Shown: positions 43,999 to 63,677 of the stretch, one piece after another
Position numbering within the stretch: position 1 is the first letter of the stretch
Layout: every line of letters begins with the position of its first letter
Assembly: GCF_002075795.1 (NCBI RefSeq)
Contig: NZ_CP020472.1
Coordinates: 3,889,001 to 3,953,000 of the forward strand
From: Shewanella japonica
GTDB taxonomy: Bacteria > Pseudomonadota > Gammaproteobacteria > Enterobacterales > Shewanellaceae
Direction: 5' to 3'
Length of the DNA: 64,000 nucleotides
The notes under the pieces: generated by a model
Told to the model about the DNA's origin: nothing
Seen by the model: the letters and a program-made list of their open reading frames with translations, nothing else
The model's database searches: none
Program-made: the position numbers and the translations under genes

Positions 43999-44895
43999 AT
44001 GGACAGACTCTCTTACTCGCAGCAGCAGAGACTATATTTTATTGATTTTAGGCTGATGTTTGTTGGTAGTTTTACACGAGCTGAAGTTGTCCAGCACTTT
44101 AAGCTCGGCTTATCTGCTGCAACTCGTGATATCAATCTTTATAAAGAATTAGCGGTGCAGAACCTTCACTATGACAACGCAGACAAGCGTTATTTCAAAA
44201 CTGAAAAGTTCATAGCGTTATTCCCACATGATGGTGAAAGTGTTTTGAAACAGCTCACCAGCACGCAAACCGACATCAATAATGTCTTTCATGGCATAAA
44301 TCTCCCTTTTGAAGCACCTAGCCAGCTAGTCGTCCCAGATTTAAATGTTCTAGCGGTTTTGACTCAAGCGACATTAAACAACATTACTGTAGATATCGAA
44401 TATATTTCATTGAGTAGCGGTCAAAGCGCGCGAACGATTGTACCTCACGCCATCATAGACAATGGGCTTCGTTGGCACATTCGAGCTTATGATTGTCAAT
44501 CCTGTGAGTTTCGTGACTTTGTAATTACAAGAATTACCAGAGCAAGCTTAAGCCAACAATCGACTACAAGAGAACAAAGTGCTCAGTCTGATCAACAATG
44601 GATACAAGAAGTGTCATTAGAATTAGTGCCTCATCCAACGAATATTAAATATCCAAAAGCTATAGAATTAGACTATGGCATGGAAAACGGGGTGCTTCAC
44701 CTTACAATTCGTTCAGCATTGACAGGGTATCTACTGCGACGCTGGAATGTTGATTGTTCCGCAAATGCAACTCAACAAACTGCTGAGCACCACCTCTGGC
44801 TACGTAACAATAATCTGTTAAATAGCGTAACGAATTTGAATCTCACTTCAGGTTTCAATTTAAACACTCTTACTTCTGCACAAGGAGCTAAGTAA
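43999..44895 (+). CDS. brxR: BrxR-like WYL-domain transcriptional regulator of BREX
   Basis: A 298-residue regulator with three parts. An N-terminal winged helix covers residues about 1-75 (QRLYFIDFRLMFVGSFTRAEVVQHFKLGLSAATRDINLYKEL). A WYL domain lies near 120-190 (VDIEYISLSSGQSARTIVPHAIIDNGLRWHIRAYDCQS...FRDFVITRI), and a C-terminal dimer extension follows. The layout matches BrxR, which represses its BREX operon and can sense a ligand through WYL. The stop overlaps the brxA start by one base (TAATG), placing it in the operon. A palindrome upstream is a likely operator. Confidence 0.88.
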   Translation: MDRLSYSQQQRLYFIDFRLMFVGSFTRAEVVQHFKLGLSAATRDINLYKELAVQNLHYDNADKRYFKTEKFIALFPHDGESVLKQLTSTQTDINNVFHGINLPFEAPSQLVVPDLNVLAVLTQATLNNITVDIEYISLSSGQSARTIVPHAIIDNGLRWHIRAYDCQSCEFRDFVITRITRASLSQQSTTREQSAQSDQQWIQEVSLELVPHPTNIKYPKAIELDYGMENGVLHLTIRSALTGYLLRRWNVDCSANATQQTAEHHLWLRNNNLLNSVTNLNLTSGFNLNTLTSAQGAK

Positions 44896-45491
44896 TGTCA
44901 GATCACAAACAATATTTAGGCGACCTAATTGGTGGTAGCTTAATGATTAGAGAAAGTCAGATTATCGCCGACTTACTTCTAAAAGAGCCGACCATAGAAG
45001 AATGGAATGAAGCAATAGTTGAGCAAAATATTCTTCAAAAGCCGTCTGCGGCCTCAGCTAAGCGCAATGCTTCAACCATAAAGAAACGCCTAGAAGGGCT
45101 AAGCAGTGATTTTCTTTCAAAACTCGCCTTCAGCGGGACTGAAGAAGCGACACAATTAATATTTGCAGCGACTTTAATCAACTCGACTTTACTCGCCGAC
45201 TTTATGCGAAACGTCGTCACCGATGCTAAGCGCATGTATAGAGACTCACTTAACGTTGACGATTGGCAGCACTTTTGGGAAGAACGAACAAGACTATATC
45301 CTGCCTTAGCAGATATGACACAAGCTTCAGTTTATAAGGTATCTCAAGTAGCTTTTAAAGTCCTTGCTGACGCAGGTTATATAGAAACGACAAAAAGCAA
45401 ACGTCTTATGAATGTATACCTATCACCTGACGTAAGACAAATACTCATTACTCTAAATCGTGATGATATTGTTAGAGCCATGGAGCCATAA
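44895..45491 (+). CDS. brxA: BREX protein BrxA (DUF1819)
   Basis: A 198-residue DUF1819 protein, small helical and winged-helix-like, required in type 1 BREX and known to bind DNA. Recognisable blocks are LIGGSLMIRESQIIADLLL, NASTIKKRLEGLSSDFL and the C-terminal AGYIETTKSKRLMNVYLSPDVRQILI. Translationally linked to brxR by a one-base overlap and seven bases from brxB. Confidence 0.92.
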   Translation: MSDHKQYLGDLIGGSLMIRESQIIADLLLKEPTIEEWNEAIVEQNILQKPSAASAKRNASTIKKRLEGLSSDFLSKLAFSGTEEATQLIFAATLINSTLLADFMRNVVTDAKRMYRDSLNVDDWQHFWEERTRLYPALADMTQASVYKVSQVAFKVLADAGYIETTKSKRLMNVYLSPDVRQILITLNRDDIVRAMEP

Positions 45492-45497
45492 CAGTTT

Positions 45498-46085
45498 ATG
45501 CAGACATTACAACAACTACAGCAACGTCTAAGCCAAGTGCAAGATAAATTAGAGAGCGATGAGTTTCTTACCAACAAAGAACTTGGCGGCGAAATTGGTT
45601 TCTACATTTTTGATTATCCCCCAGAGCATGAAGTGGCGGTTCGGGAGCACCTTAGCTATTTAACTAAAAAGCTAAAAAGCCGATCAGAAGCTAAAGGTGG
45701 GCGTTTTGCCAGTATCAACCTATTTGAAATGGTTATCGAATTACTTAAGTCTAGAAAGCTGCTTGAACGCTCATATAAGATGCAGTTTGAAAAAGGCGAT
45801 GATGCGCTGTTTAAAGCATTAAAAGGACCGCTAGAGCAAAACCGTTTTGCAGAGTTTATTGTTGAGCAAGCAGACGTTAAAGGTTGTGATTTTATCATGT
45901 TACACGGTTTAGGAAGTGTTTGGCCTATTGTCCGAGGTCACGGTTTGCTGAATGCATTACATGCTAAGGTCGGTAATGTACCAACAGTCATGTTCTACCC
46001 AGGTGAATATGATGGTGCCGCACTTAAACCTTTTGGCAGGATAGAATCAAATAACTATTATCGTGCTTTTAAGCTTGTGCCATAA
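45498..46085 (+). CDS. brxB: BREX protein BrxB (DUF1788)
   Basis: A 195-residue DUF1788 protein. It has the family blocks GGEIGFYIFDYPPEHEVAVREHL, INLFEMVIELLK and DVKGCDFIMLHGLGSVWPIVRGHGLLNALHAKVGNVPTVMFYPGEYDGAALKPFGRIESNNYYRAF. BrxB is a core component of uncertain biochemical role in the BREX complex. It follows brxA by six bases. Confidence 0.93.
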   Translation: MQTLQQLQQRLSQVQDKLESDEFLTNKELGGEIGFYIFDYPPEHEVAVREHLSYLTKKLKSRSEAKGGRFASINLFEMVIELLKSRKLLERSYKMQFEKGDDALFKALKGPLEQNRFAEFIVEQADVKGCDFIMLHGLGSVWPIVRGHGLLNALHAKVGNVPTVMFYPGEYDGAALKPFGRIESNNYYRAFKLVP

Positions 46086-46131
46086 GCCATTGAGCTAGTA
46101 AGTAAACTTTGTCATCAGTTAGGGACAACAA

Positions 46132-47190
46132 ATGCAAATTGAACAACTTATCAAAAAAAATATTAATCTCTATCACAACGGTATAGTTAAAGCCGAAGAA
46201 ATCGATAATGAAACGGTTTTTGTTGAGTTAGACAAATATGTAGTTACCAACGAACTAAAAGAGCACATTGAAAACTTTTTTAAGCTTTACATGACACCTA
46301 CTTCTAGCGCTGAGGCATCTTCCCCTGCGAGTAAATCAGGCATTTGGCTATCGGGTTCCTTTGGAAGCGGTAAATCACATTTCATTAAGATTTTAGCTTA
46401 TTTAATACAAAACATTGAAGTCACTTGCAATGGTTTTAATCGAACAGCTTTTGACATGTTTGCAGAGAAACTACAGCCAAATGATATTTTCTTAGCTGAT
46501 ATTGAGAAAGCGATCAAAAATGAAAATAAAGTCATTTTGTTTGATATTGATAAGCTCGCCAATACTGATGATAAAGAAGATGTCATCTTAAAAGTGCTAT
46601 TAAAAATGTTCAACGCACAACTTGGCTACTGTGCCACCCACGCCCATATTGCTCACTTCGAGCGGGACTTGGACAGAAGTGACAAGTTTGATGCATTCAA
46701 ACAAGCCTTTAACACTATCTCTGGTGAGAATTGGTTAAAAGAACGTGATGCATATGATTTCTACCGTGATGATATCGCTGAAGCATTAACACAAGTTACA
46801 GAGCAGTCCTTAGATTCGGCTCAACAACAAATTGATAAACTGGAAGAAAGCTTCCACCTTGATATAACTCACTTCTGTAAATGGGTCAAAGAATACCTCG
46901 ATGGCAGCCCTAAGCGTCGTCTACTCTTCTTCATCGATGGAGTGGGTCAGTTTATGGGTAACAACAAAGCAATGATGCTGCAATTACAAACTATCACAGA
47001 AAGTCTAAGCGAAAATTGTAATGGTAAGGCATGGGTGGTCGTCACTGCTCATGACGATATTGATACTGTAATTGTTCGTATGGAAGAGTCAAAAAGTCAG
47101 GATTTATCTAAGGTTAAAGCTCGTTTTGAGCACATTTATTTATCTGAATCGAACACCAAAGAAGTCATTCAAAAAATGACTCAATTGTAA
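46132..47190 (+). CDS. Truncated BrxC paralogue lacking key ATPase residues
   Basis: A 352-residue protein aligning without gaps to the first 352 residues of the BrxC just downstream, about two thirds identical by my hand count. It keeps Walker A (GSFGSGKS, Lys81). Walker B FFVDE of BrxC becomes FFIDG (Glu270 to Gly). The conserved SQ after strand WVIVT becomes AH, and Arg334, a candidate arginine finger, becomes His. It stops where the BrxC C-terminal 880 residues would begin. The ribosome binding region GTTAGGGACA is the same as before brxC. The frame is intact for 352 codons, which argues against simple decay. It might assemble with BrxC as a nucleotide-binding, non-hydrolysing subunit or inhibitor. 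Confidence 0.85.
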   Translation: MQIEQLIKKNINLYHNGIVKAEEIDNETVFVELDKYVVTNELKEHIENFFKLYMTPTSSAEASSPASKSGIWLSGSFGSGKSHFIKILAYLIQNIEVTCNGFNRTAFDMFAEKLQPNDIFLADIEKAIKNENKVILFDIDKLANTDDKEDVILKVLLKMFNAQLGYCATHAHIAHFERDLDRSDKFDAFKQAFNTISGENWLKERDAYDFYRDDIAEALTQVTEQSLDSAQQQIDKLEESFHLDITHFCKWVKEYLDGSPKRRLLFFIDGVGQFMGNNKAMMLQLQTITESLSENCNGKAWVVVTAHDDIDTVIVRMEESKSQDLSKVKARFEHIYLSESNTKEVIQKMTQL

Positions 47191-47239
47191 AAAATAACAT
47201 TACTCAATTTTAAGATTATTAGTCTGTTAGGGACAAACA

Positions 47240-50954: not shown

Positions 50955-52741
50955 ATGTATCAAAATGGCGGAAGCATAAAGCAACTATTAGACAAAGTGG
51001 CAGATCAAACACTTGTGTTACCAGCAATCCAACGTGAATTTGTTTGGAAGCCAGAACAGATCTGTCAACTATTCGATAGCCTGCTGCAAGGCTATCCTGT
51101 TGGCACATTTTTGTATTGGAAAATAAAGCCTGAGCATCGTAGCGACTATCAGTTTTATGAGTTTGTTCAAAACTACCATCAAAGAGATGCGAACCATTGT
51201 GTTCGCCTCGAAAACATGGGAAACAAAGAGTTTACTGCAGTCCTTGATGGACAACAGAGAATTAGCTCATTGAACATTGGATTAAGAGGATGCTATCACC
51301 AAAAAATTGCTGGTAAATGGTGGTCTAGTAATGATGCTTTTCCAGAAAAGCACCTTTATATCAATCTTTTTGGTATGCCTGATGAAGAGGGAAATCAGTA
51401 CCAATTCGAGTTTCTTACTAAAGAAAAAGCGACAGTAAAAAGTACTGAGCAGTATTGGTTTAAAGTCTCTAATATATTTGATGGTGACATAGACGAGCTG
51501 CAAGATATTCTCGTTGACGAACTCGTCGATGAACTAGGCGATATGGTGGATAAAGAGCAGCGCTCTACAGCTAGAAAGTTGCTCCGTAAACTAAACTCAT
51601 TAATTCACGATAAGCCTGTGATCTCATACTATGAAGAAGCAGATCAAAGCCTAGAGAAAGTGCTTAATATCTTTATTAGAATGAATAGTGGAGGTACACC
51701 GCTTTCCTATTCAGATCTATTATTGTCTATTGCCGTAGCGCAATGGGACAACCTAGATGCACGAGAAGAGATCCATTCATTAGTTGACGAATTAAACCAA
51801 ATTGGCGACGGCTTCAGTTACAGCAAAGATCTTGTCTTAAAAGCGGGGTTAATGTTGTCAGATATCGGTAGCGTTGGCTTTAAGGTAGAAAACTTCAACA
51901 AAGAGAACATGTCCGTTTTAGAGGATAAATGGGACTCTATAAAGCAAGCGCTAACTGTGACAACGCAGTTATTTGCGAGCTTTGGCTTCAATGCCCAAAA
52001 TTTACGAGCAGATAGTGCATTACTGCCTGTTGCTTACTACATCTACCATCAAAACCACGACGAAAGTTATCTATCAAAAAGCATGTATGCTCAAGATAGA
52101 GCAAATATTCGACTTTGGCTCGTTAAGTCGTTACTTAAAGCATCGGGGATCTGGGGAAGTGGTTTAGATACCTTGCTAACAGGGATTCGTACTGAAATAA
52201 AAAACAGTAATAACGATAACTTCCCCATTCAAGCTATTGAAAACTTGATGGTAAGCCGAGGTAAGTCGCTTAAGTTTGAAGCCGAAGAAATAGACGAGTT
52301 AGTCGAACTCGAATACGGTAACAAGCGCACATTTGCTTTACTGTCTGTTTTATTTTTTGGTTTTGATTTTTCGCATCACTTCCACATCGATCACATCTAC
52401 CCTAAAGGTCTATTCAACCGACCAGCCCTGAGAAAGCTAGGGCTAGATAACGATGAAATTGAACAATTCATTCAGCTCTCTAATAAGCTACCTAACCTAC
52501 AGTTGCTTGAAGGTTCAATTAACAATGAAAAGCGCCAAAAATGCCGCACATTTGGTATGCACAGCAATGGCCTAACGAGATAGACCGTGCCCATTATCTT
52601 GATCGACAAGCAATCACTGAATTACCAGAGTCGCTACTTGCATTTGGCTCATTTTATGATAAACGCAAGCAAATACTTAGAGCGAGAATCGAGCAAGCAT
52701 TAGATGCACATAACTCCGTTAGCGATGTGACAAATAATTAA
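50955..52741 (+). pseudogene. DUF262/HNH (GmrSD/BrxU-like) nuclease gene with C-terminal frameshift
   Basis: Encodes a DUF262 protein. IQREFVW (residues 25-31) and the nucleotide-hydrolysis-type DGQQR (98-102) are in the N-terminal part. A DUF1524/HNH-type HIDHIYPKGLFNR lies near residue 475. Such fusions are type IV restriction enzymes that attack modified phage DNA; BrxU in one BREX island is of this kind. The frame ends at 52583 with an unrelated 13-residue tail. From 52541 a second frame continues the expected C-terminus (PHIWYAQQWPNEIDRAHYLDRQ) to 52741. One extra A in the A5 run 52537-52541 would restore about 595 residues. The operon position between brxC and pglX and AGGA ribosome site indicate cotranscription. 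Confidence 0.82.
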
Positions 52742-52758
52742 AAATTTTTGGATAAACA

Positions 52759-55700
52759 ATGAACACCAATAAACTAAAATCTTACGCCCCAAAAGCTCGT
52801 ATTGCGTTTATGCAAGCGGTAACAAAACGTGCGGCTGTGTTGGGCTTATATGAAGACCGTATCGCTGATGTCAATATTCAGGGTGATAATGCCATTATTG
52901 AAGGCCGAGTATTTACCCGTAAACAGGGCCAGCAGCGTAATCAATTAGAAAAGCGCATTGAATCGCTTGGTACCCATGACGGTAAGCTCGATCTAAAAAC
53001 AGGTTTTAAGCAGTTTATCAACGAAACCGCTTTTACTTGGTTTAACCGTTTCACCGCCATACGTTATATGGAGATCAACGGCTACTTTGATCACGGTTTT
53101 CGAGTGCTCAGCAAACCGCCGCATTCAGATGGGAGCTTTGCCAAATTTGACGAAGGTTTCGAAATCTTATCTCATGCTGCCGACGTAGCAGATGATCTAG
53201 GGCTAGATAAAGCCCAAATAGTACAAATGATGCTTGATGGCGATAAAGAAGAAGAGCTGTATCGTGAAATACTATTAGGTCAGTGCCACCAATTAAGCCA
53301 TATCATGGCTTTCATGTTCGAAAAGCTAGATGATGCAACCGAACTACTGCTGCCTGATAACCTGACTAAAACCGATTCTATCTTAAAAGCATTAATCGAT
53401 GATCTTCCAGAAGATAACTGGCGTGATATTGAAGGCGAGAAAGGTCAAATTGAAGTCATCGGTTGGCTATATCAGTTCTACATCTCTGAGCACAAAGATG
53501 CCGTGATTGGTAAAGTGGTTAAGCGTGAAGACATTCCAGCAGCAACCCAGCTATTTACCCCCAACTGGATTGTAAAATACCTAGTGCAAAACTCGTTAGG
53601 TCGCCAATGGCTCGCCACCTACCCTGACTCAGCACTTAAAGACAAGATGGAGTATTACATCACTCCTGCACAGCAGAGTGATGATGTGATTGCACAGCTA
53701 AAAGCCATCACCCCAGCCAGCATAGATCCTGAGCAAATCAAGGTGCTCGACCCTGCTTGTGGTTCAGGTCATATCTTAGTGGAAGTGTATGAAGTACTGC
53801 GTGAGATCTACCTAGAGAATGGTTATCGTCTACGTGAGATCCCTGAGCTTATTCTAACCAAGAATATTTATGGCTTAGATATTGATGATCGTGCAGCGCA
53901 GATGGCGGCATTTGCCGTATCAATGAAAGCCCGTGAAGATGATAAGCGTATCTTTAGCCGCATTACAGATTCAGTTGGCACTGAAAATGAAATCAAACTC
54001 AACATCTACTCACTGCAATCAACTGAAAACCTCAATATCAACAAGCTGTGGGCAGATTTAGATTTTGACGGTATGCAGCAAACTGGTGGAATGACAGATC
54101 TATTTGCAGCACCACAGCAAGACGTTGCCGAAACATCTTCTGCCAATGCCGAAAATCAGGTTTATCTTAATCTACTGCGTTATCTCAAGACGCAGTTTAT
54201 CGATGCCAAAAACTTAGGCTCTTTGATTGAAATTGATAGCCAATATCAAGTTACGTTAACTGAACTGAAAGCCAAGCTGCTCGAAAATGCACAAAACAAT
54301 CATCAACCAACCAGACAAGCTGTAGAAATTTTGTTACCGATTGTTGAACAGGCAATTGTTCTATCACGTCAATATGATGTTGTAGTTGCCAACCCCCCTA
54401 CATGGGCAAGAAAGCAATGAACTCTATCCTAAAAAAATATGGCAACAATAATTACAAATTATCAAAATTAGATCTATTTACCATGTTTATGGAGAGAGGA
54501 GCCAGTTTAATCAAACCTTATGGGTATAATGCTCAAGTGAATATGCAAGCTTGGATGTTTCTTAGTAGTTACGAACAATTAAGGCTTAATTTTGTAGAAA
54601 ACTATACTTTTATCTCGCTAGCTCATTTAGGTACAAAAGCATTTAGTGAAATAGGCGGGGAGATAGTTAAAACTGTTGCGTGGGTACATACACATAAGCT
54701 CCAGAACTACTCATCAACTTTTATCGATTGTTCTAAGTTAATCGAACAAGATAAATCTAAATCCATAAGAATGGACACTGGGAATAGGCATTACAATAAT
54801 CTAGAGAATTTGAAAGGTATACCTGGTTTACCATTTGCTTATTGGGTTAATACAGATTTTTTAAATATTTTCTCAAACAACCCTAAAATGGAAGAAAAAG
54901 CACCAGCTATGCAGGGTTTAGTTACTGCTGACAACGAACAGTTCGTTCGCTTTTGGCATGAGACTGACTTTAATAATATTTCTTTGACTTGCTCATCAAA
55001 AGATGAGTGTATCGAATCAGGAAAGAAGTGGTTCCTATACAATAAAGGCGGAAGTTATCGTAAATGGTTTGGAAATCAAGAGCACATTGTTAATTGGTGG
55101 TTCGATGGACATGATATAAAACAAAAAAAGTCAACAGATTTAAAACTTGGAAAGATCACAGCTAATAACTCTAAATGCTGGAATCAAAAATACTATTTCA
55201 AAACTGCTATTAGTTGGTCAGGAATATCCACAGACAGAAACTCATTTAGACTTTATCCAGAAGGTTCTATTTTTAGTGGCGCAGGGCTTTCTGCCTTTTT
55301 TAATCCTTCACAACAAAATAAAGCAATAGGATTACTAAATTCAAATTTATATCGACAACTCATTTCCATAATATCCCCAGGTCACAATTTAACCAGCGGG
55401 GAGTTTGGGAAGTTCCCATATTTAGAACTAGACGCCAATATAGAAAATCATGTGGCCAGCTTAATTAGTATTCACAAATCAGATTGGGACAGCAAAGAAC
55501 TATCTTTTGAGTTTACTTCTAATGGTTTAGTGTCAAATCATTGTGAAAGCATTAAAGATTCGATGATGAAATACATTAATGAGTCTAAAAATATAACTGA
55601 CAAAACTCATGCGTTAGAATGTGAGCTTAATGACACAATAAATAAAAGTGCAAATATAGTAAACCATGTCAATCCAAATGTGAAAATGTCTGAAATCACC

Positions 55701-56558
55701 TTGTTTTCAAATATACTTTATCGTTACAGCAACACAAATGATTTACATAGCCTAACATTAAGATATCAAAGCGACTTGACTTCAGAATTAATTAGTTTTG
55801 CTATCGGTTGCATGATGGGTCGCTACTCGCTTGATCGTGAGGGATTGGTCTATGCTCACTCAGGCAATAACGGTTTCAAAGAGTTAGTCGCTGAAGGCGC
55901 ATACAACACCTTCCCTGCTGACGATGATGGAATCATCCCACTAGCGGCAGAAGAATGGTTATTTGAAGATGACGCAACGACTCGTTTCCGTGAATTCGTC
56001 AAAACTGTTTGGGGCGAAGAGCATTTAACCGAAAACCTCGACTTCGTTGCTGAAAGCCTATGCTTAGATGCGATTAAAGCTAAGAAAGGTGAAGGCACAA
56101 TGGATACCATACGTCGCTACTTCTCGACCCAGTTCTACAAAGATCATTTAAAGACGTACAAGAAGCGTCCAATTTATTGGTTGTTTAGCAGTGGTAAAGA
56201 AAAAGCGTTTGAATGTTTGGTGTACTTGCATCGTTATAATGAAAGTACCCTCGCCCGTATGCGTACTGAGTACGTCACACCGCTTATGGGTAAAATTGAA
56301 ACACAACTAGCGATGCGTGCTGAATCTATCAATAACGCCCCTTCTACCACAGAGAAGAATCGCTTGACTAAAGAGCTTAAATCTCTTGAGAAGAAACAAG
56401 CCGAACTGCGTGTTTTTGATGAAGAGCTAAAACATCTGAGCGAGATGAAAATCAACCTAGATTTAGATGACGGCGTAAAGGTGAACTACGGCAAGTTTGG
56501 CAACTTACTCAGCGATGTCAAAGACATCCATGGTAAAAAGCCAGAGGCAGTGAAGTAA
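52759..56558 (+). pseudogene. pglX: BREX methyltransferase PglX, split by a one-base frameshift at the NPPY motif
   Basis: PglX is the N6-adenine methyltransferase that marks host DNA in BREX. Part one (52759-54420) has motif I VLDPACGSGH (Asp331) and ends at NPPTWARKQ. Part two is open from ATG 54402 to 56558 and reads MGKKAMNSILKKYGNNNYKLSKLDLFTMFMERG, the normal continuation. At the junction AAC is followed by a C6 run (54393-54398) and TACATGGGC. With seven C the protein reads NPPYMG and is about 1266 residues, a normal PglX length. The present state lacks the catalytic tyrosine and everything after it, so no methylation is expected. The middle (about 54420-55800) is AT-richer than both ends, suggesting a swapped target-recognition region. 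Confidence 0.92.
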
Positions 56559-56560
56559 TT

Positions 56561-57004
56561 TTGGAGAAAAAGCTAAGCTTTTCCAAGCAGCAAAAAAAGA
56601 GTCTAAGAGCAATCTTAGGCTCTTTACCCGCTTACGATAAACTCGACGGTGCAGAATCATTCTTACTTTGCTATATCGCATTTGAAACACTGACTAGAAA
56701 AATCTGGAATTTTCATCGAAGCGCAAAAGCCAATAAAGAGGTCAATGAAACTCATGCACCTTTGACGTTACCTGCTGTAAAATCGGCATTTATGGCTTAT
56801 AACATCAAAATTTCAGATGACGTTATAACACCTATCCTTAATTCCAATTTAAACAAACGTGGCTCTATGAACGTAAGAAGTCTGCGGAATGGCTTGGTCC
56901 ATCAATGGAAAGCTAAGGACAGAGAAGAAGTCATCGCTAGATATAACGAGATAATGGCTTACCTCGACAAAGTGATTCAGGCTATTAGAGTAGAAATAAA
57001 ATGA
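56561..57004 (+). CDS. HEPN-like small protein inside the BREX operon
   Basis: A 147-residue helical protein with a HEPN-type Rx4H motif: RNGLVH at Arg109 and His114. A conserved helix FLLCYIAFETLTRKIWNF precedes it. HEPN proteins are often RNases acting as toxins or abortive-infection effectors. It starts with TTG two bases after the pglX stop and overlaps pglZ by four bases (ATGA), so it is tightly built into the operon. Family assignment rests on the motif and helical pattern. An alternative is a non-catalytic HEPN that binds a partner. Confidence 0.7.
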   Translation: MEKKLSFSKQQKKSLRAILGSLPAYDKLDGAESFLLCYIAFETLTRKIWNFHRSAKANKEVNETHAPLTLPAVKSAFMAYNIKISDDVITPILNSNLNKRGSMNVRSLRNGLVHQWKAKDREEVIARYNEIMAYLDKVIQAIRVEIK

Positions 57005-59847
57005 ATATAGACCAAATTTCCCAAGGCCTTTTAACCAAATTTGAGCAATGTCGTATCGTATTGTGGCAAGACATTGATAAAGAGTTCACAACACAACTTG
57101 ATGAACTGACTATCAATGACGGTGCAGGAAACCCGATTGAGGTTATCCGTTTAGACGATGTCTCGCATTTTCAAGTAAAAGAGCGTATTGAACTACTTGA
57201 GCCTGAAACGCCGTTTTTACTGTATAACACAGTCGCACCAAATCAACCTGAGCGTGATTGGCTATACGACATTCGCTTATACGCAGAAAGCTTTTATGCC
57301 GACTCTAGTTCAATGATCCTCAATGAATTAGGAATGCGAATGGAGTTTCGCCCAGTTGTGACAGAGCATCGTGCATTTTTTACCAATAAAACCCGCATGA
57401 ATCGCTTGAAGAAACTTCTGCCAGAAAATGCCAATAAAGAAGAGCTACAACTGGCATTGATCGCTGCCAGCTTAAAGGTTGATTCGCCGACCTTTGTAAC
57501 GATTTTACAGCACTTAATCATGCAGTTTGCTCAGCTAATTAAAGAAACGGGAAGTTTTTCAGAAGCGGCTCTTTCTATAAGCACAGACTTGCAAGACTCT
57601 GCTCCAAAAAGTGATTCGTCAAAAAACAAAAACAGTCTATTTACTGAACTACAGAAATATAACTTAGAAACCGCCTTCTGGCGCTTTGCTAACGAAACAC
57701 TAGGTTATGATGTAGAGAAGAATGATAGCGATGATGGCGATTCTAAAGACAGCAATACACAGCTTGACTCACAGCAAAAGCTGCAAGATTTAATCATCAA
57801 GCTGCTGTTTACTGAGTGCTATCAAGCACTGCAAAATAGCGGTGTTAGCAGCAAAGATCCAATGCTAGAGCGCTTCACTCTGCAATTACTGCCGATTATT
57901 CTTGATGAGAAAGGCAAGCGAGTGGTTGCGAGCACTGTGAGTGTCGGTATGAACTCATCCAAACGAGCGATGGCTGTAAACATTATTAAAAGCTTACGTG
58001 AAAGCCGCTCAATGGCACAAGATTACAATGCGATAGCGGCAGAAGTTGAGCGTGAGTTTGAGCTGAAAAATATTCTCTCAATGGTGAAACAACCACACCT
58101 ACTACAGAGTGTTGAAACCTTTGAGTACGCAGAGCAACAGCTCATTATTCTACTTGCTCGCCAAATTAACGAGCTTGAGCAAGTTGATATCAATAAAATC
58201 GTTTCACACCGTTTAACGACACATTGGGCGCACACTAGTCATAATAAAAATGGTAGTAAATCCAACTATGCAGCCATTTTAAATGCAATTAAAGCCGCAA
58301 AACAGTTCTACACCTTGAAGCAAAAATACATTGATGGCTTTAATTACGACTCTGCAAAAGCAATGTATCAGGCGTATGAGCAAGAGCTTTACCTGTTTGA
58401 TGCTGCTTATCGTGAGTTCTGTGAAAATGCTATTAAAGTGGCACATAACGGCTCTGACATTTTGAAGAAAACAGGGTTAGTTAATGATATTGAAGCCCTT
58501 TATGTCGATTGGTATCTGCACGATCTAGCCATTAGCTGGGGCAAATTGGTTGATAATGAAAACTTACTCGAACAATGGAAGCTTTCAGGAGTTCCTAACC
58601 AATATGACTTTTATAATCGCCAAGTAGAAGCGACATTCCAAAGCAGCCAAGTTAAGAAAGTGTTTGTGATCATCTCCGATGCACTGCGCTATGAAGTGGC
58701 ACATGCTATTAGCGATCAAATCAATAATGAGAAACGCTATTTAAGTGAGATAAAGTCTCAGTTAGGTGTTGTGCCATCTTATACTCAATTGGGTATGGCT
58801 GCGCTACTTCCTCATAATGAGTTAACGGCTCATGTTGGCGCAAAAGTAGAGTACAAAGCAGATGGCGTGAGTGTACATGGCCATGAAAACCGCCAAAAAA
58901 TACTGGCAAAGCGAAATGGCTTGGCATTTAAAGCCTCTGAAGTACTTAACTGGACTAACGAAGAGGGTCGCCAAAAAATACATGATGCTCGTGTGGTGTA
59001 TATCTATCACGATCAAATTGATGCTATTGGCGATAAAGCGGTAACAGAAAATCAAACCTTTGATGCTTGTGCCGATGCTATTGCTGAGATAAAACAGCTT
59101 ATTGAGCGTATTATTAACCGTTTAAATGGTAGCCGTATTTTGGTTACTGCTGATCATGGCTTCTTGTTTAAGTCGAGTGATGTAGTCGATTCTGATAAAA
59201 CTGCTTTAACCGTTAAGCCTCAAGGCAGTGTTGAAGCTAAAAAGCGCTATTTAATCGGTGAAAACCTGCCTGAAGATAATTACTACTGGCAAGGTAAAAT
59301 GGCTGCTACGGCCAACCTAAGTGTTGAAGGCTGTGATGCTGAGTTTATCGTCCCCCGTGGCTCAAACCGATTTAACTTTGTCGGTGGCGCTAAGTTTATT
59401 CATGGTGGCATCATGCCGCAGGAGATCTGCGTGCCAATATTGAAAATTCGGGAGTTAGATAAAAAGCAGCAAACCAAACACGCCAAAGAGCGAGTGTCGG
59501 TTGTGCCTTTAAGCAATCCAATAAAGCTTGTTGCACTAGCTGATAAAATTGAACTGTTCCAAGCATCGCCTGTTGGTAAAGATTATCTCGCTCGTGAGTT
59601 AGAAGTCTGGATTGAAGATCCTGAAGGCAAAACGGTTTCTCACAAACAAAAAGTGATGTTCGATTCAACGTCCGAGAAAAGTGACGAGCGTAAGCGCAAT
59701 GTCATTATTATGCTTAGCGGCTCAGGCTTTGATCGAACGGTAGCTTACAAGTTAATGATGAATGACATTACTCAGCCTAATCGACCGAATTTATTGCAGT
59801 CACACTCAGTTACGATTGATATCGCTATTGAAGACGATTTCTTCTAA
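57001..59847 (+). CDS. pglZ: BREX alkaline-phosphatase-family protein PglZ
   Basis: A 948-residue PglZ, the hallmark gene of BREX. The alkaline-phosphatase-type metal site is visible as VFVIISDALRYEV (Asp560) and ILVTADHGF (Asp718, His719). An N-terminal region of about 550 residues includes a serine- and aspartate-rich linker near residues 200-260. PglZ binds nucleic acid or nucleotides; its precise activity in BREX is not settled. It overlaps the HEPN gene and is followed by brxL after five bases. Confidence 0.95.
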   Translation: MNIDQISQGLLTKFEQCRIVLWQDIDKEFTTQLDELTINDGAGNPIEVIRLDDVSHFQVKERIELLEPETPFLLYNTVAPNQPERDWLYDIRLYAESFYADSSSMILNELGMRMEFRPVVTEHRAFFTNKTRMNRLKKLLPENANKEELQLALIAASLKVDSPTFVTILQHLIMQFAQLIKETGSFSEAALSISTDLQDSAPKSDSSKNKNSLFTELQKYNLETAFWRFANETLGYDVEKNDSDDGDSKDSNTQLDSQQKLQDLIIKLLFTECYQALQNSGVSSKDPMLERFTLQLLPIILDEKGKRVVASTVSVGMNSSKRAMAVNIIKSLRESRSMAQDYNAIAAEVEREFELKNILSMVKQPHLLQSVETFEYAEQQLIILLARQINELEQVDINKIVSHRLTTHWAHTSHNKNGSKSNYAAILNAIKAAKQFYTLKQKYIDGFNYDSAKAMYQAYEQELYLFDAAYREFCENAIKVAHNGSDILKKTGLVNDIEALYVDWYLHDLAISWGKLVDNENLLEQWKLSGVPNQYDFYNRQVEATFQSSQVKKVFVIISDALRYEVAHAISDQINNEKRYLSEIKSQLGVVPSYTQLGMAALLPHNELTAHVGAKVEYKADGVSVHGHENRQKILAKRNGLAFKASEVLNWTNEEGRQKIHDARVVYIYHDQIDAIGDKAVTENQTFDACADAIAEIKQLIERIINRLNGSRILVTADHGFLFKSSDVVDSDKTALTVKPQGSVEAKKRYLIGENLPEDNYYWQGKMAATANLSVEGCDAEFIVPRGSNRFNFVGGAKFIHGGIMPQEICVPILKIRELDKKQQTKHAKERVSVVPLSNPIKLVALADKIELFQASPVGKDYLARELEVWIEDPEGKTVSHKQKVMFDSTSEKSDERKRNVIIMLSGSGFDRTVAYKLMMNDITQPNRPNLLQSHSVTIDIAIEDDFF

Positions 59848-59852
59848 GGACA

Positions 59853-62096
59853 ATGACGATGAATGAACACAAAAACAACGAAGAAAACGCTACAAACCAC
59901 TCTTCACACTTAGATGAAAGTGACAGCAATATCGAAGTGCATCATTACCACCATTACGGTGATGACAATCATGATATGAGTGATGACAGCGTACATAATG
60001 AAGGTGAAGATATCTTCACTGAATCATTAGCTTATGACGAAAAAATTGCTCAAGAAGTTCAACAAGTCCGTGACGTTGACCTTGACCAACTAATGACTAC
60101 TCAGTTCAAAGGCCGTGTGGTTCGTAAAGATCTGACTAAGCAGTTAAAAGAAGGCGCTAACGTGCCTGTTTACGTACTTGAGTATCTACTTGGTATGTAT
60201 TGCTCGTCAGCTGAAGATGACCTAATTGATGCTGGCTTAGTCCGTGTTAAGCAAATCTTGACTGATAACTATGTGAGACCCGATGAAGCGGAGAAAGTGA
60301 AATCACTGATCCGTGAAAAAGGCACTCATAAAGTTATTGATAAAGTATCGGTAAGACTTAACCAGAAAAAAGACGTTTACGAGGCTAGCTTATCTAACCT
60401 TGGAATTAAAGATGCTGTCATCCCTGCCAGTATCATTAAAGACAATGAAAAGTTACTTACGGGTGGTATTTGGTGCATCGTGAGTTTGAGCTACTTTTTT
60501 GAAGAAGGGCAAAAAACATCACCTTTTTCTGTTGTGACATTGAAAGCTATTCAAATGCCATCAATGAACATGCAGGAAGTATTTGATGCAAGACGTGCCT
60601 TCACTATGGATCAATGGCTTGATCTGTTACTGCGTTCTATCGGTATGGAGCCTGCAAACTTAAAGCAAAGAGCTAAGTGGCATTTGCTAGCAAGGATGAT
60701 CCCATTTGTAGAAAATAATTATAATGTGTGTGAGCTTGGCCCTCGTGGTACGGGTAAGTCACATGTTTACAAAGAGTGCTCACCCAATTCGCTTTTGGTA
60801 TCTGGCGGTCAAACAACCGTTGCGAACTTATTCTATAACATGTCATCTCGCCAAGTGGGTTTGGTTGGCATGTGGGATGTAGTCGCTCTTGATGAGGTTG
60901 CTGGTATCCGTTTTAAAGACAAAGACGGCATTCAGATCATGAAAGACTATATGGCTTCAGGCTCATTTAGCCGTGGCCGAGACTCCATTGAAGCAAAAGC
61001 TTCGATGGTATTTGTCGGCAACATAGATCAAAGCGTTGAAACGTTAGTAAAAACGAGCCACCTGTTAGCCCCCTTCCCTCCAGAAATGATTGATTCAGCC
61101 TATTTTGATCGTTTCCATGCTTATATTCCTGGGTGGGAAATACCTAAAATGCGGCCTGAGTTTTTTACAGACCGCTTTGGCTTAATCACTGACTACCTAG
61201 CTGAATACATGCGAGATATGCGCAAGCAGACGTTCTCTGATGCAATCAATAAGTACTTTAAGTTTGGTAATAACCTAAATCAGCGTGATGTTATAGGTGT
61301 GAAGCGCACCACTTCAGGTTTATTAAAGCTGTTATTCCCGCACGGTGAATACAATAAAGAAGATGTTAGAGTGTGTCTGACCTATGCGCTTGAGTCACGT
61401 CGCCGAGTCAAAGAGCAGCTAAAGAAAATCGGTGGTATGGAATTTTTCGATGTTAATTTTTCTTACATCGATAATGACACTCTTGAAGAGTTCTTTGTTA
61501 ATGTGCCTGAACAAGGTGGTTCTAATTTAATACCTGCTGGCCCTCAAAATGCTGGTGTGGTGCATTTTGTCAGTCATGGTGCTATGGGCAAACTCGGTGT
61601 TTTCCGTTTAGAAACACAAAAAACAGCTGGTACAGGCAAACACCGTGCAACAGGCTTTGGTAATGATACACATGCAAAAGAGCAAGTGAGGATTGGTTTT
61701 GATTACTTTAGAGGTAATTTAAGCCGTATTAATGCTTCAGCTAAATTCTCAGAGTTTGAATTTAACCTCCATAGTGTTGATTTACAAAGCTCTGGTTGTA
61801 CACAGACAGCAAGCTTGGCATCTCTAGTCGCCTTCTGTTCAATCCTACTAGCTAAACCTATTCAAGAGCAGATGGTTGTACTTGGTGATATGTCTTTAGG
61901 TGGTGTGGTAAACCCTGTGACAGATTTGGCAGGATCAATGCAAGTAGCTCATGAAGCTGGTGCGACTAAAATATTACTGCCGATGTCATCTGCAAGTGAT
62001 ATTCCTACCGTACCGTCAGAAACATTTACCAAGTTTCAGGTAAGCTTTTACAGTGACCCTATAGATGCTGTGTATAAAGCTCTGGGCGTAAACTAA
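59853..62096 (+). CDS. brxL: BREX Lon-like AAA+ protein BrxL
   Basis: A 747-residue AAA+ protein of the Lon-like BrxL family. Walker A is GPRGTGKS (Lys302), Walker B VVALDE (Asp348, Glu349). The C-terminal Lon-like part has VVLGDMSLGGVVNPVTDLAGSMQVAHEAGATKILLP. The lysine of the Lon catalytic dyad is not at its usual place (it aligns in the LAGSM region), in line with BrxL proteins acting as DNA-binding motors rather than proteases. The first 60 residues are an extra acidic and histidine-rich tail (VHHYHHYGDDNHD) beyond the usual DNA-binding start near DLDQLMTTQFKGRVVRKDL. Last gene of the operon. Confidence 0.94.
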   Translation: MTMNEHKNNEENATNHSSHLDESDSNIEVHHYHHYGDDNHDMSDDSVHNEGEDIFTESLAYDEKIAQEVQQVRDVDLDQLMTTQFKGRVVRKDLTKQLKEGANVPVYVLEYLLGMYCSSAEDDLIDAGLVRVKQILTDNYVRPDEAEKVKSLIREKGTHKVIDKVSVRLNQKKDVYEASLSNLGIKDAVIPASIIKDNEKLLTGGIWCIVSLSYFFEEGQKTSPFSVVTLKAIQMPSMNMQEVFDARRAFTMDQWLDLLLRSIGMEPANLKQRAKWHLLARMIPFVENNYNVCELGPRGTGKSHVYKECSPNSLLVSGGQTTVANLFYNMSSRQVGLVGMWDVVALDEVAGIRFKDKDGIQIMKDYMASGSFSRGRDSIEAKASMVFVGNIDQSVETLVKTSHLLAPFPPEMIDSAYFDRFHAYIPGWEIPKMRPEFFTDRFGLITDYLAEYMRDMRKQTFSDAINKYFKFGNNLNQRDVIGVKRTTSGLLKLLFPHGEYNKEDVRVCLTYALESRRRVKEQLKKIGGMEFFDVNFSYIDNDTLEEFFVNVPEQGGSNLIPAGPQNAGVVHFVSHGAMGKLGVFRLETQKTAGTGKHRATGFGNDTHAKEQVRIGFDYFRGNLSRINASAKFSEFEFNLHSVDLQSSGCTQTASLASLVAFCSILLAKPIQEQMVVLGDMSLGGVVNPVTDLAGSMQVAHEAGATKILLPMSSASDIPTVPSETFTKFQVSFYSDPIDAVYKALGVN

Positions 62097-62522: not shown

Positions 62523-63419
62523 TTATTGATAAAAAATCTTATCTAATTCACTGCAAAAAACCGTTCTGTATATCATTCTGCTTTGTAATAACTCAACGTT
62601 AGATTCTGTTAGTAAAGGCTGGCGGGTCTTTTTATCGATTCTGGTACTCAGCTCCTCAAAAAGCTGTCCATGTAATCGTTTTATATCACTGAATATCTGC
62701 TGTGATTGCGAGAACAGCATCACTTTATCGTAATAGCCATGATTTAAGCCGTATAGCCACTTTAAGAGAATGGTTTGCCTTGCCGCCTTGGTCTTAAATG
62801 AATGCTCCATTTCAATCGCTGTAATGCTGCCAGACACTTCCAGCACAATGCCATCGACGTTTCTCACATCATGAGAGTTAAACAACCTTTTAAACTCCGA
62901 CTCTGTCACCACAGAGTGCCAAAACACATTATCTTCACCATCCTTACTTTTATTATGTACGCCTCGTAGCTGGATATACTGCATCATCAAATCATGCATC
63001 ACGGTATTCAGATTGACTCTTAATGATGGGTTATCGCCTGAGCGAAAATAAACGGCCACTGACAGTAACTCCTCAGCATACTTAGCACCTGTATAACCGA
63101 GTACATAGACGCGATTATCTAAAGACCGATGAGTGATGACCACATTGAGTAATTTTTCCTTCACGAGCTTGTTTAAATGCTCTAGTGCCTGCCGCTTAGA
63201 AATACCGTAAAGCCAGGCAATAATCGTAGGTGACGTCATCCCGAATCTTGCCACTATTTTGATAGTGAGTTCCCTTCGAGCTTTGCCCGTTTGATTATTG
63301 TTAGCACCGCAGAAATAACGCATAGGAATAAACAGGTAAGGCTGAAACTTTTCAACCTTACCGCCTGCCTCATAAACGCTTACGTTAATCGCATTCTGTA
63401 ACGCTTGATGTGTGTGCAT
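62523..63419 (-). CDS. Winged-helix protein resembling replication-relaxation proteins
   Basis: About 298 residues. A winged helix lies early (ARFGMTSPTIIAWLYGISKRQALEHLNKLVKEKLLNVV), followed by an alpha/beta part with DGIVLEVSGSITAIEMEHSFKTKAARQ. The D...E-x-E...K pattern resembles the nuclease-like core of replication-relaxation proteins of plasmids and mobile elements. The ATG at 63419 is chosen as a plausible domain start; the frame is open to 63554. The gene is convergent with brxL and not part of BREX. The link to element maintenance is inferred. Confidence 0.5.
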   Translation of the reverse strand: MHTHQALQNAINVSVYEAGGKVEKFQPYLFIPMRYFCGANNNQTGKARRELTIKIVARFGMTSPTIIAWLYGISKRQALEHLNKLVKEKLLNVVITHRSLDNRVYVLGYTGAKYAEELLSVAVYFRSGDNPSLRVNLNTVMHDLMMQYIQLRGVHNKSKDGEDNVFWHSVVTESEFKRLFNSHDVRNVDGIVLEVSGSITAIEMEHSFKTKAARQTILLKWLYGLNHGYYDKVMLFSQSQQIFSDIKRLHGQLFEELSTRIDKKTRQPLLTESNVELLQSRMIYRTVFCSELDKIFYQ

Positions 63420-63677
63420 AGTGATATCCGAATTCTTTGAATTATTGATATCAATAACTAGTGTCAGGTACTGCAAATTATCACCACAAGTCACGTAATT
63501 CATGCCGTTAAGCTGATTTATTCCTGTCGGGATGAAAATAGCGATGAACATCACTACAAAGCCAGCCTTTGGCTGATGAGTGTTTAACTTCGTTAATCCC
63601 TCATATGCTCTGAAGCGCCCACCCGCTCTGATGACTCGTCATCGGCGCAGGTTTACGAGCTACGCTCTAGCACTTCA

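Follow-up and report, generated by a model that had tools for sequence, protein, structure and literature searches.

A truncated BrxC paralogue with altered ATPase residues beside the intact brxC of a type I BREX operon

Results

The BREX operon

The window analysed here is a stretch of 64,000 nucleotides from Shewanella japonica. It contains a type I BREX operon composed of a WYL regulator, brxA, brxB, a short BrxC-type gene that we call C', full-length brxC, a DUF262/GmrSD gene, a split pglX, pglZ and brxL (Table 1). All six genes that we looked for in a type I BREX system (brxA, brxB, brxC, pglX, pglZ and brxL) were found, with pglX in two frames. BrxR is the named regulator of BREX (PMC13326643, introduction) and is a WYL protein according to the title of PMC9122589. 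The DUF262/GmrSD-type gene between brxC and pglX corresponds to HEC-05 in PADLOC, and a DUF262 gene also directly follows brxC in one E. coli plasmid BREX (L022).

Table 1. Genes and features of the BREX operon, with positions in the window
Feature	Position	Strand	Remark
WYL-domain regulator (BrxR-like)	43999..44895	+	Pfam WYL 3.1e-10
brxA	44895..45491	+	Pfam BrxA 1.9e-44
brxB	45498..46085	+	Pfam BrxB 8.9e-38
C' leader with GTTAGGGACAA (Shine-Dalgarno-like)	46118..46131	+	distance to ATG as in the brxC leader
C', truncated BrxC paralogue, predicted AAA+ core only, 352 aa	46132..47190	+	
Walker A G78-S82, intact	46363..46377	+	preceding F76 is Ser in C'
Walker B Glu270 to Gly	46939..46941	+	Glu in 65/65 other sequences
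Gln307 to His	47050..47052	+	first residue past strand 300-306 (model); Gln in 65/65 others
K327 and R331, kept in C'	47110..47124	+	equivalents of Acinetobacter BrxC arginine fingers K326/R330
Arg334 to His, not the finger	47131..47133	+	
Spacer before brxC, 49 bases	47191..47239	+	TCTGTTAGGG near ATG here and in Psychromonas
brxC, full length, 1234 aa	47240..50944	+	ATP-site residues of the N-terminal domain intact
DUF262/GmrSD-type gene	50955..52583	+	Pfam GmrSD_N 1.3e-33
pglX 5' part	52759..54420	+	frame lost at NPPY motif
pglX 3' part, different frame	54402..56558	+	
pglZ	57001..59847	+	TIGR02687 2e-225
brxL	59853..62096	+	Pfam BrxL_ATPase 1.5e-144

The operon was scanned for homopolymers, taking G/C runs from six and A/T runs from eight. 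pglX is split at a six-C run within its NPPY motif (54393-54420), the only G or C run of at least six in the operon. Three plasmid relatives (L021, L023, L024) read NPPY at this site with shorter C runs. The split could come from phase variation, from a fixed loss or from an error in sequencing, and the operon may be inactive because pglX is split. The only A/T run of at least eight is an eight-A run at codons 8-10 of C' (46153-46160), a possible slippage site. The interval between pglX and pglZ holds a 147-residue open frame (56561-57004) without a Pfam or NCBIfam match at 0.001. Past brxL, on the opposite strand, lies a gene (62523-63554) with a MobC-type match of 48.8 bits against an NCBIfam cut-off of 200, which perhaps marks the edge of a mobile element. 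No tRNA genes were found in the window.

Relationship of C' to BrxC

C' starts with ATG and runs for 352 codons with no internal stop. The initial annotation described all 352 codons as aligning with BrxC without gaps at about two thirds identity. The alignment is indeed gapless and 68% identical (238/348), but it spans BrxC residues 1-348 and leaves the last four residues of C' (MTQL) outside. At the DNA level C' and brxC differ at 267 of 1044 bases, with 75, 44 and 148 differences at codon positions 1, 2 and 3. The likeness is not due to chance, because C' matches the PADLOC BrxC model with an E-value of 7.9e-129 and the solved BrxC sequence with 1.4e-96. Its own genome, a single contig of 4.98 Mb, has two BrxC-type matches, which are C' and BrxC, the second at E 8.0e-158. 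Against NCBIfam BREX_BrxC (NF033441) C' scores 363.6 bits, under the cut-off of 400; it has no Pfam family at 0.001, and its PADLOC matches are to the BrxC, SspC and mad8 models. The leaders of C' and brxC have GTTAGGGACAA in common at an equal distance from the ATG, and because of this resemblance C' is probably translated.

ATPase residues and conserved columns

We aligned C' with 65 distinct BrxC-type N-terminal domains, namely that of the neighbouring BrxC (here C) and 64 others that are 22 to 90% identical to C. L008 (the same gene as L007), L035 (a broken fragment), seven of the 39 viral loci and the identical row L034 were excluded. Sixteen columns are invariant in the 65 sequences. C' keeps 14 of these (E32, W72, S74, G75, G78, G80, K81, S82, K86, G165, D269, R331, F332 and L337) and loses two, the Walker B glutamate (E270G) and Q307 (Q307H), the latter being a residue that we take to be the sensor-1 position, going by AAA+ convention. 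If two of the 16 columns were lost at random, the chance of this pair would be 1 in 120, and both residues had been singled out before the 65-sequence alignment existed. In a leave-one-out comparison at 97% conservation none of the 65 loses more than two columns (V18 and T305 in the worst case), and E270 and Q307 are kept in every one. With the threshold at 95%, C' loses 4 of 25 columns (adding V18I and F76S), and at 90% it loses 7 of 40.

The initial annotation had placed the changes at expected ATPase sites within a conserved fold. This holds for E270, Q307 and the core, but in a narrower set of 21 BrxC sequences 17 of 75 invariant columns are changed in C', including R13L, E35K, N138D and R334H, and the lost constraint is therefore wider than the active site. 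The individual observations were accurate: Walker A (G78-S82) is intact, and E270G, S306A, Q307H and R334H are all present. The Walker B motif of C' keeps its aspartate (D269) and has lost its glutamate.

The placing of Arg334 among the catalytic sites did not stand up. In the solved structure of Acinetobacter BrxC the arginine fingers are K326 and R330 (PMC13326643 section 27). Their equivalents K327 and R331 are both kept in C', which rules out Arg334 as the arginine finger. Its column, in 33 sequences other than C and C', contains 24 R, 7 K, 1 N and 1 P, and it is a separate, less conserved basic residue. Among the other functional positions K81 is kept, and so are E290 and D206, the equivalents of the interface residues E289 and D204, while R430 is gone by truncation. 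The retention of K327 and R331 is weak evidence for function, because 58 of the 75 columns are kept anyway.

Predicted fold

An AlphaFold2 model of C' based on 35 aligned sequences (from the window, L007 and 32 of the 39 viral loci) has a pLDDT of 85.1 and a pTM of 0.84, with residues 1-22 modelled poorly. An earlier model from three sequences (pLDDT 35.8) was discarded. We presume that the five core strands are residues 70-75, 131-138, 262-269, 300-306 and 332-337. No strand is modelled between 306 and 332, where the pLDDT is partly 71-78, and the model ends one helix past strand 332-337 with the helical bundle absent. Compared with the solved BrxC structure 9zdx, the model gives Z 36.9 and rmsd 2.0 over 329 residues in VIA-align, and 5.5e-30 in Foldseek. 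The first fold neighbours outside BrxC in VIA-align are ORC proteins, from Z 13.8. By this model C' is predicted to be an AAA+ core that ends before the helical bundle, and the truncation removes sensor 2 as well as the bundle.

Origin of the copy

An amino-acid tree of 22 N-terminal domains groups C' with C and the BrxC proteins of a Psychromonas MAG, a Vibrio plasmid and L003 from the same family, which are 90%, 86% and 76% identical to C. The branch to C' has a length of 0.54 compared with 0.025 for C, and the fork order of C', C, L003, L007 and L021 is left open by this tree. A codon likelihood analysis with six taxa and five placements sets C' beside C, which is better than the four other placements by 4.1 to 11.1 lnL. 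The neutral branch lengths per codon are 2.01 for C' and 1.77 for C (or 1.70 and 2.23 if C is given a separate omega), and such similar values are as expected for two copies in one genome. No sequence in the distance matrix is nearer to C' than C. By eye, the beginning of the spacer upstream of C' and the end of the spacer upstream of brxC both resemble the Psychromonas brxB-brxC spacer, and about 37 bases of the spacer upstream of brxC look homologous to it. The best-supported reading of the tree and placement, the similar neutral branches, and the leaders and spacers is that C' arose as a tandem duplicate of the brxC leader and codons 1-348 within this BREX lineage.

We rejected the idea that gene conversion from brxC has kept C' open, because the differences between the two are spread over all 12 windows of the alignment (16 to 29 of 87 bases each). 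There is one identical run of 30 bases, and local conversion may have occurred.

Selection on C'

The dN/dS on the branch to C' is 0.255 against a background of 0.026, a roughly tenfold rise. Values of 0.15 and 0.5 fall inside the 95% limits and values of 0.1 and 0.7 outside, and 1.0 is rejected (2dlnL 7.8); a dN/dS near one, named at the outset as evidence against a pseudo-ATPase, is thus not what we observe. In a simple model, one omega fits 0.8 lnL better than a constrained phase followed by decay, and 3.8 lnL worse than a simple mixture in which 47% of sites are constrained and the other 53% have an omega of 0.54. We also compared six branch models with two background site classes. The log-likelihood is -4769.63 for no change on the branch, -4733.21 for a wholly neutral branch, -4729.19 for one omega and -4728.44 for a constrained phase followed by neutrality (0.75 better than one omega). 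Relaxing the BrxC constraint pattern in proportion is much worse (-4743.95). The best of the six, not decisively, leaves half of the sites at BrxC constraint and half at an omega of 0.5 (-4723.86, with one extra parameter). Neutrality of the whole branch is rejected in both codon models.

The decay model requires about 160 neutral substitutions, and when the brxC N-terminus was mutated at random no stop appeared in 0.2% of 4000 trials, before counting indels. Columns that are always hydrophobic are broken in C' at 2 of 94 positions where 10.4 would be expected (P 0.001). Single-base replacements have a mean BLOSUM62 score of 0.57 in C' compared with -0.34 at random (20,000 samples, none so high); the mean over all replacements between C and Psychromonas is 0.69. 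In these tests C is used as a stand-in for the ancestor and the codon models are simple. Of the usual marks of a pseudogene (stops, frameshifts and a dN/dS near 1), C' has none: it is open, gapless and at 0.255. A recent pseudogene is disfavoured as first choice by dN/dS, the open frame, the hydrophobic core and the conservative replacements, and we favour a protein that is kept folded under a new, weaker constraint. The preference of the initial annotation for a pseudo-ATPase over random decay is supported by the loss of E270 and Q307 among the 16 columns, by a dN/dS of 0.26, and by a frame and core that are better kept than neutrality predicts.

Taxonomic distribution

We searched its own genome and the genomes of its family, order and class (1377 genomes counted, repeats included; limits of 1e-15 or 1e-20). 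In none of the 29 other genomes with a BrxC-type match (31 matches) was a stand-alone N-terminal copy found beside brxC. One contig start (L035, genome G1042) carries a broken BrxC N-terminal fragment with two stops, distant from full-length brxC. A scan of genome contigs, covering close relatives only, found one Psychromonas BrxC, whose frame stays open for 600 codons up to where the stored sequence stops, and no C'.

Viral contigs gave no match with C' alone as query. With an alignment as query 39 loci were found in IMG/VR, 37 of them with one N-terminal tblastn match and never two; the match covers only 32 residues in L076 and L077, and the short frames L039 and L042 look frameshifted. The frame of L070 is cut by the contig end, and that of L016 stops after 642 codons near the contig end. 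In L045 (6001-8900) BrxC lacks approximately residues 369-533 and the frame changes there. In L057 (6001-7098) unrelated sequence breaks into a brxC that shares 95% identity with the one in L059. The break lies at about residue 353 in C numbering (about residue 341 of the L059 match), near the point at which the homology of C' stops.

By place counts, each of six phage records has one match place. For plasmids there are 281 places in 276 records, and the best 60 and a further 60 spread rows all have one place. The one two-place record inspected, NZ_MN256758.1 (L079, L080), has two full-length brxC genes of equal score 23 kb apart, which suggests that it carries a doubled BREX region. In E. coli, matches occur in 401 of 5426 genomes, with 408 places in 403 records and at most two per genome, again as place counts. 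A second case of C' was not found among genome contigs, phages, plasmids, E. coli and IMG/VR as searched, and C' is known from one genome. The gene order brxB-C'-brxC, proposed as something to look for in other BREX loci, is therefore found in no other genome searched. Occurrence in one genome together with frameshifts in close relatives had been named as evidence of decay; the first half holds, and no frameshifted copy was seen because no searched relative carries C'.

Discussion

BREX switches between idling, methylating and restricting. BrxC N-terminal domains are described as stacking back to face, with ATP held at each interface and R330 of one domain entering the pocket of the next (PMC13326643 sections 27, 29, 30 and 31). 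BrxB occupies the same BrxC pocket and puts an arginine into it, and the BrxC-BrxC and BrxC-BrxB contacts look mutually exclusive. Interface mutants lose restriction, and methylation is lost too except in BrxB R82E, which keeps 84.6%. BrxC assembly is proposed in the discussion of that paper as a key control point of BREX. In Vibrio cholerae, a BrxC Walker B mutant supplied in trans overrides wild-type BREX and a Walker A mutant does not (PMC11580459 section 8); efficient N-terminal association required ATP-binding ability in both partners, according to the same paper.

We suggest, with somewhat less than even confidence, that C' has been kept as a BrxC core unable to hydrolyse ATP, which docks at the BrxC ATP pocket and limits the assembly of BrxC or BrxB. 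The sequence and modelled fold were observed, and from them we infer that C' would be hydrolysis-dead. The proposed course of events begins with the duplication of the brxC leader and codons 1-348, giving a copy that would have been kept as a folded AAA+ core. This core keeps the finger residues K327 and R331, which in solved BrxC reach the ATP pocket of the partner, and is without the Walker B Glu, Q307, sensor 2 and the helical bundle, as well as the domains for DNA binding and C-terminal dimerization. Its finger face would dock on the ATP pocket of full-length BrxC, which is the site of either the next BrxC or BrxB:PglZ. Docked C' would then cap BrxC oligomers or displace BrxB:PglZ and so hold the restriction complex down. 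C' might end or block assembly in this way because it offers a finger face with no ATP turnover and no DNA-binding or dimerization part. It would resemble BrxB in build and the dominant-negative V. cholerae Walker B mutant in effect.

C' may bind ATP, with Walker A kept and sensor 2 gone. The initial annotation left open whether such a protein joins or restrains BrxC oligomers, and by analogy restraint seems the likelier outcome because of the published Walker B mutants. The dominant-negative data concern full-length BrxC, not a 1-348 fragment (PMC11580459). Since pglX is split, a restrained complex would fit a state without self-methylation, although such a fit to a pglX-off state is speculation. 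Points against a braking role are that C' is found in a single genome, that its constraint is widely relaxed, and that the split pglX may leave the operon inactive. The Vibrio requirement for ATP binding by both partners, with sensor 2 gone from C', and the E. fergusonii results given below likewise tell against carrying the published mutant data straight over to C'. The stronger claim that C' is a newly born inactive AAA+ BREX subunit, which caps BrxC rings through its finger and acts as a dominant-negative brake from within the operon, we regard as doubtful.

In the main rival explanation C' is a relic: a partial duplicate on which selection ceased some time ago, and which is now decaying with its frame open by luck. 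We consider this somewhat unlikely. It would account for the single genome, for the tenfold rise in dN/dS and the 53% of relaxed sites under the simple mixture, for a constraint loss extending past the active site and for the split pglX in the same operon, and a constrained phase followed by neutral drift fits about as well as one omega. It has to explain why 348 codons are open and gapless despite some 160 neutral substitutions (the probability of no stop is 0.002 before indels), why the hydrophobic core is preserved and replacements are conservative, and why only E270 and Q307 are lost among 16 strictly invariant columns. The possibility that C' is instead the remnant of an imported second BrxC left by recombination, not an in-place duplicate, could draw on the 32% of residues at which it differs from C and on the open fork of C', C, L003, L007 and L021. 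We think it quite improbable, as the codon likelihood sets C' beside C by 4.1 to 11.1 lnL, the neutral branches are similar (2.01 and 1.77) and C is the closest sequence in the matrix.

Other functions might be imagined for a folded C'. A non-hydrolysing C' could bind ATP, and join and stabilise mixed BrxC rings, much as ORC contains inactive AAA+ subunits. Walker A, D269, E290 and both finger residues are intact, and the next fold neighbours are ORC/Cdc6 proteins. In PMC13326643 the ATP-dependent association of Acinetobacter BrxC 1-551 is raised by E269Q; the E268Q mutant of E. fergusonii kept restricting phage, and 1-551 restricted in part. We nevertheless hold such a supporting role to be improbable, as C' lacks sensor 2 and the bundle, the Walker B mutant failed to restore defence in Vibrio (PMC11580459), and every Acinetobacter mutant tested in PMC13326643 lost restriction, E269Q among them by our own reading. 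It is even harder to credit that C' is a decoy for a phage protein that inhibits BrxC, OrbA being an example. This protein binds BrxC and interferes with its N-terminal association, and Walker A and B mutants still bind it (PMC11580459). A decoy would have to preserve its binding surface, and the loss of E270 and Q307 would be left without a reason. OrbA, whose action is unsettled, does not bind the distant VchBan9 BrxC.

If C' is indeed a newly born inactive subunit, it would repeat within a single lineage the path by which inactive subunits of the BrxB kind might have come about. C' may also offer a glimpse of an inactive AAA+ subunit as it forms. As a natural BrxC that consists of the core only, is apparently hydrolysis-dead and stands next to an intact copy, it is a ready-made reagent for the assembly-control idea. 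If C' is a relic, it still reveals the residues that are given up after the full-length role has ended.

Comparison with known systems

In line with the statement of the initial annotation that no BREX component of this kind was described, the literature searched, which had most subscription papers and preprints outside its range, gave no BrxC paralogue, whether duplicated or truncated, within a BREX operon. Compared with solved BrxC (9zdx, 9zll, 9zn5), C' is homologous over residues 1-348, with the AAA+ core fold, Walker A and the arginine fingers. Unlike BrxC, it is without the helical bundle, wHTH, alpha+beta, coiled-coil and dimerization domains, has lost the Walker B Glu and Q307, falls under the NCBIfam cut-off of 400, and has 352 residues compared with the 1200-1300 of this multidomain protein (PMC12839542 section 16).

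The Walker B mutants E255A of Vibrio and E269Q of Acinetobacter share with C' the lost glutamate and the kept Walker A. They are laboratory point mutants, the Vibrio one of full length, and C' is natural, truncated and has also lost Q307. ORC carries inactive AAA+ subunits, which are paralogues of the ORC/Cdc6 clade without hydrolysis within a hetero-oligomer. Unlike C', these are eukaryotic, larger and widely conserved. McrBs, the short form of McrB, comes from the same gene as McrB, has an intact NTPase and uses GTP. C' differs in being a separate gene that is predicted to be hydrolysis-dead. Both are shortened AAA+ subunits without a DNA-binding part, and McrBs, which modulates the assembly of its restriction complex, is a precedent for titration of such a complex (PMC9009780).

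In build C' would resemble BrxB, an inactive AAA+/STAND core without Walker motifs or helical bundle (PMC12839542). C' is likewise a predicted inactive AAA+ core without the bundle, its gene stands beside brxC, and by analogy it may also put an arginine into the BrxC ATP pocket. Unlike BrxB, C' descends from BrxC and keeps Walker A. It has no Pfam or PADLOC BrxB match, and its model has no cap-like sheet after strand 4, which rules it out as a BrxB member. C' belongs with neither BrxC nor BrxB, and is a variant of a known BREX system.
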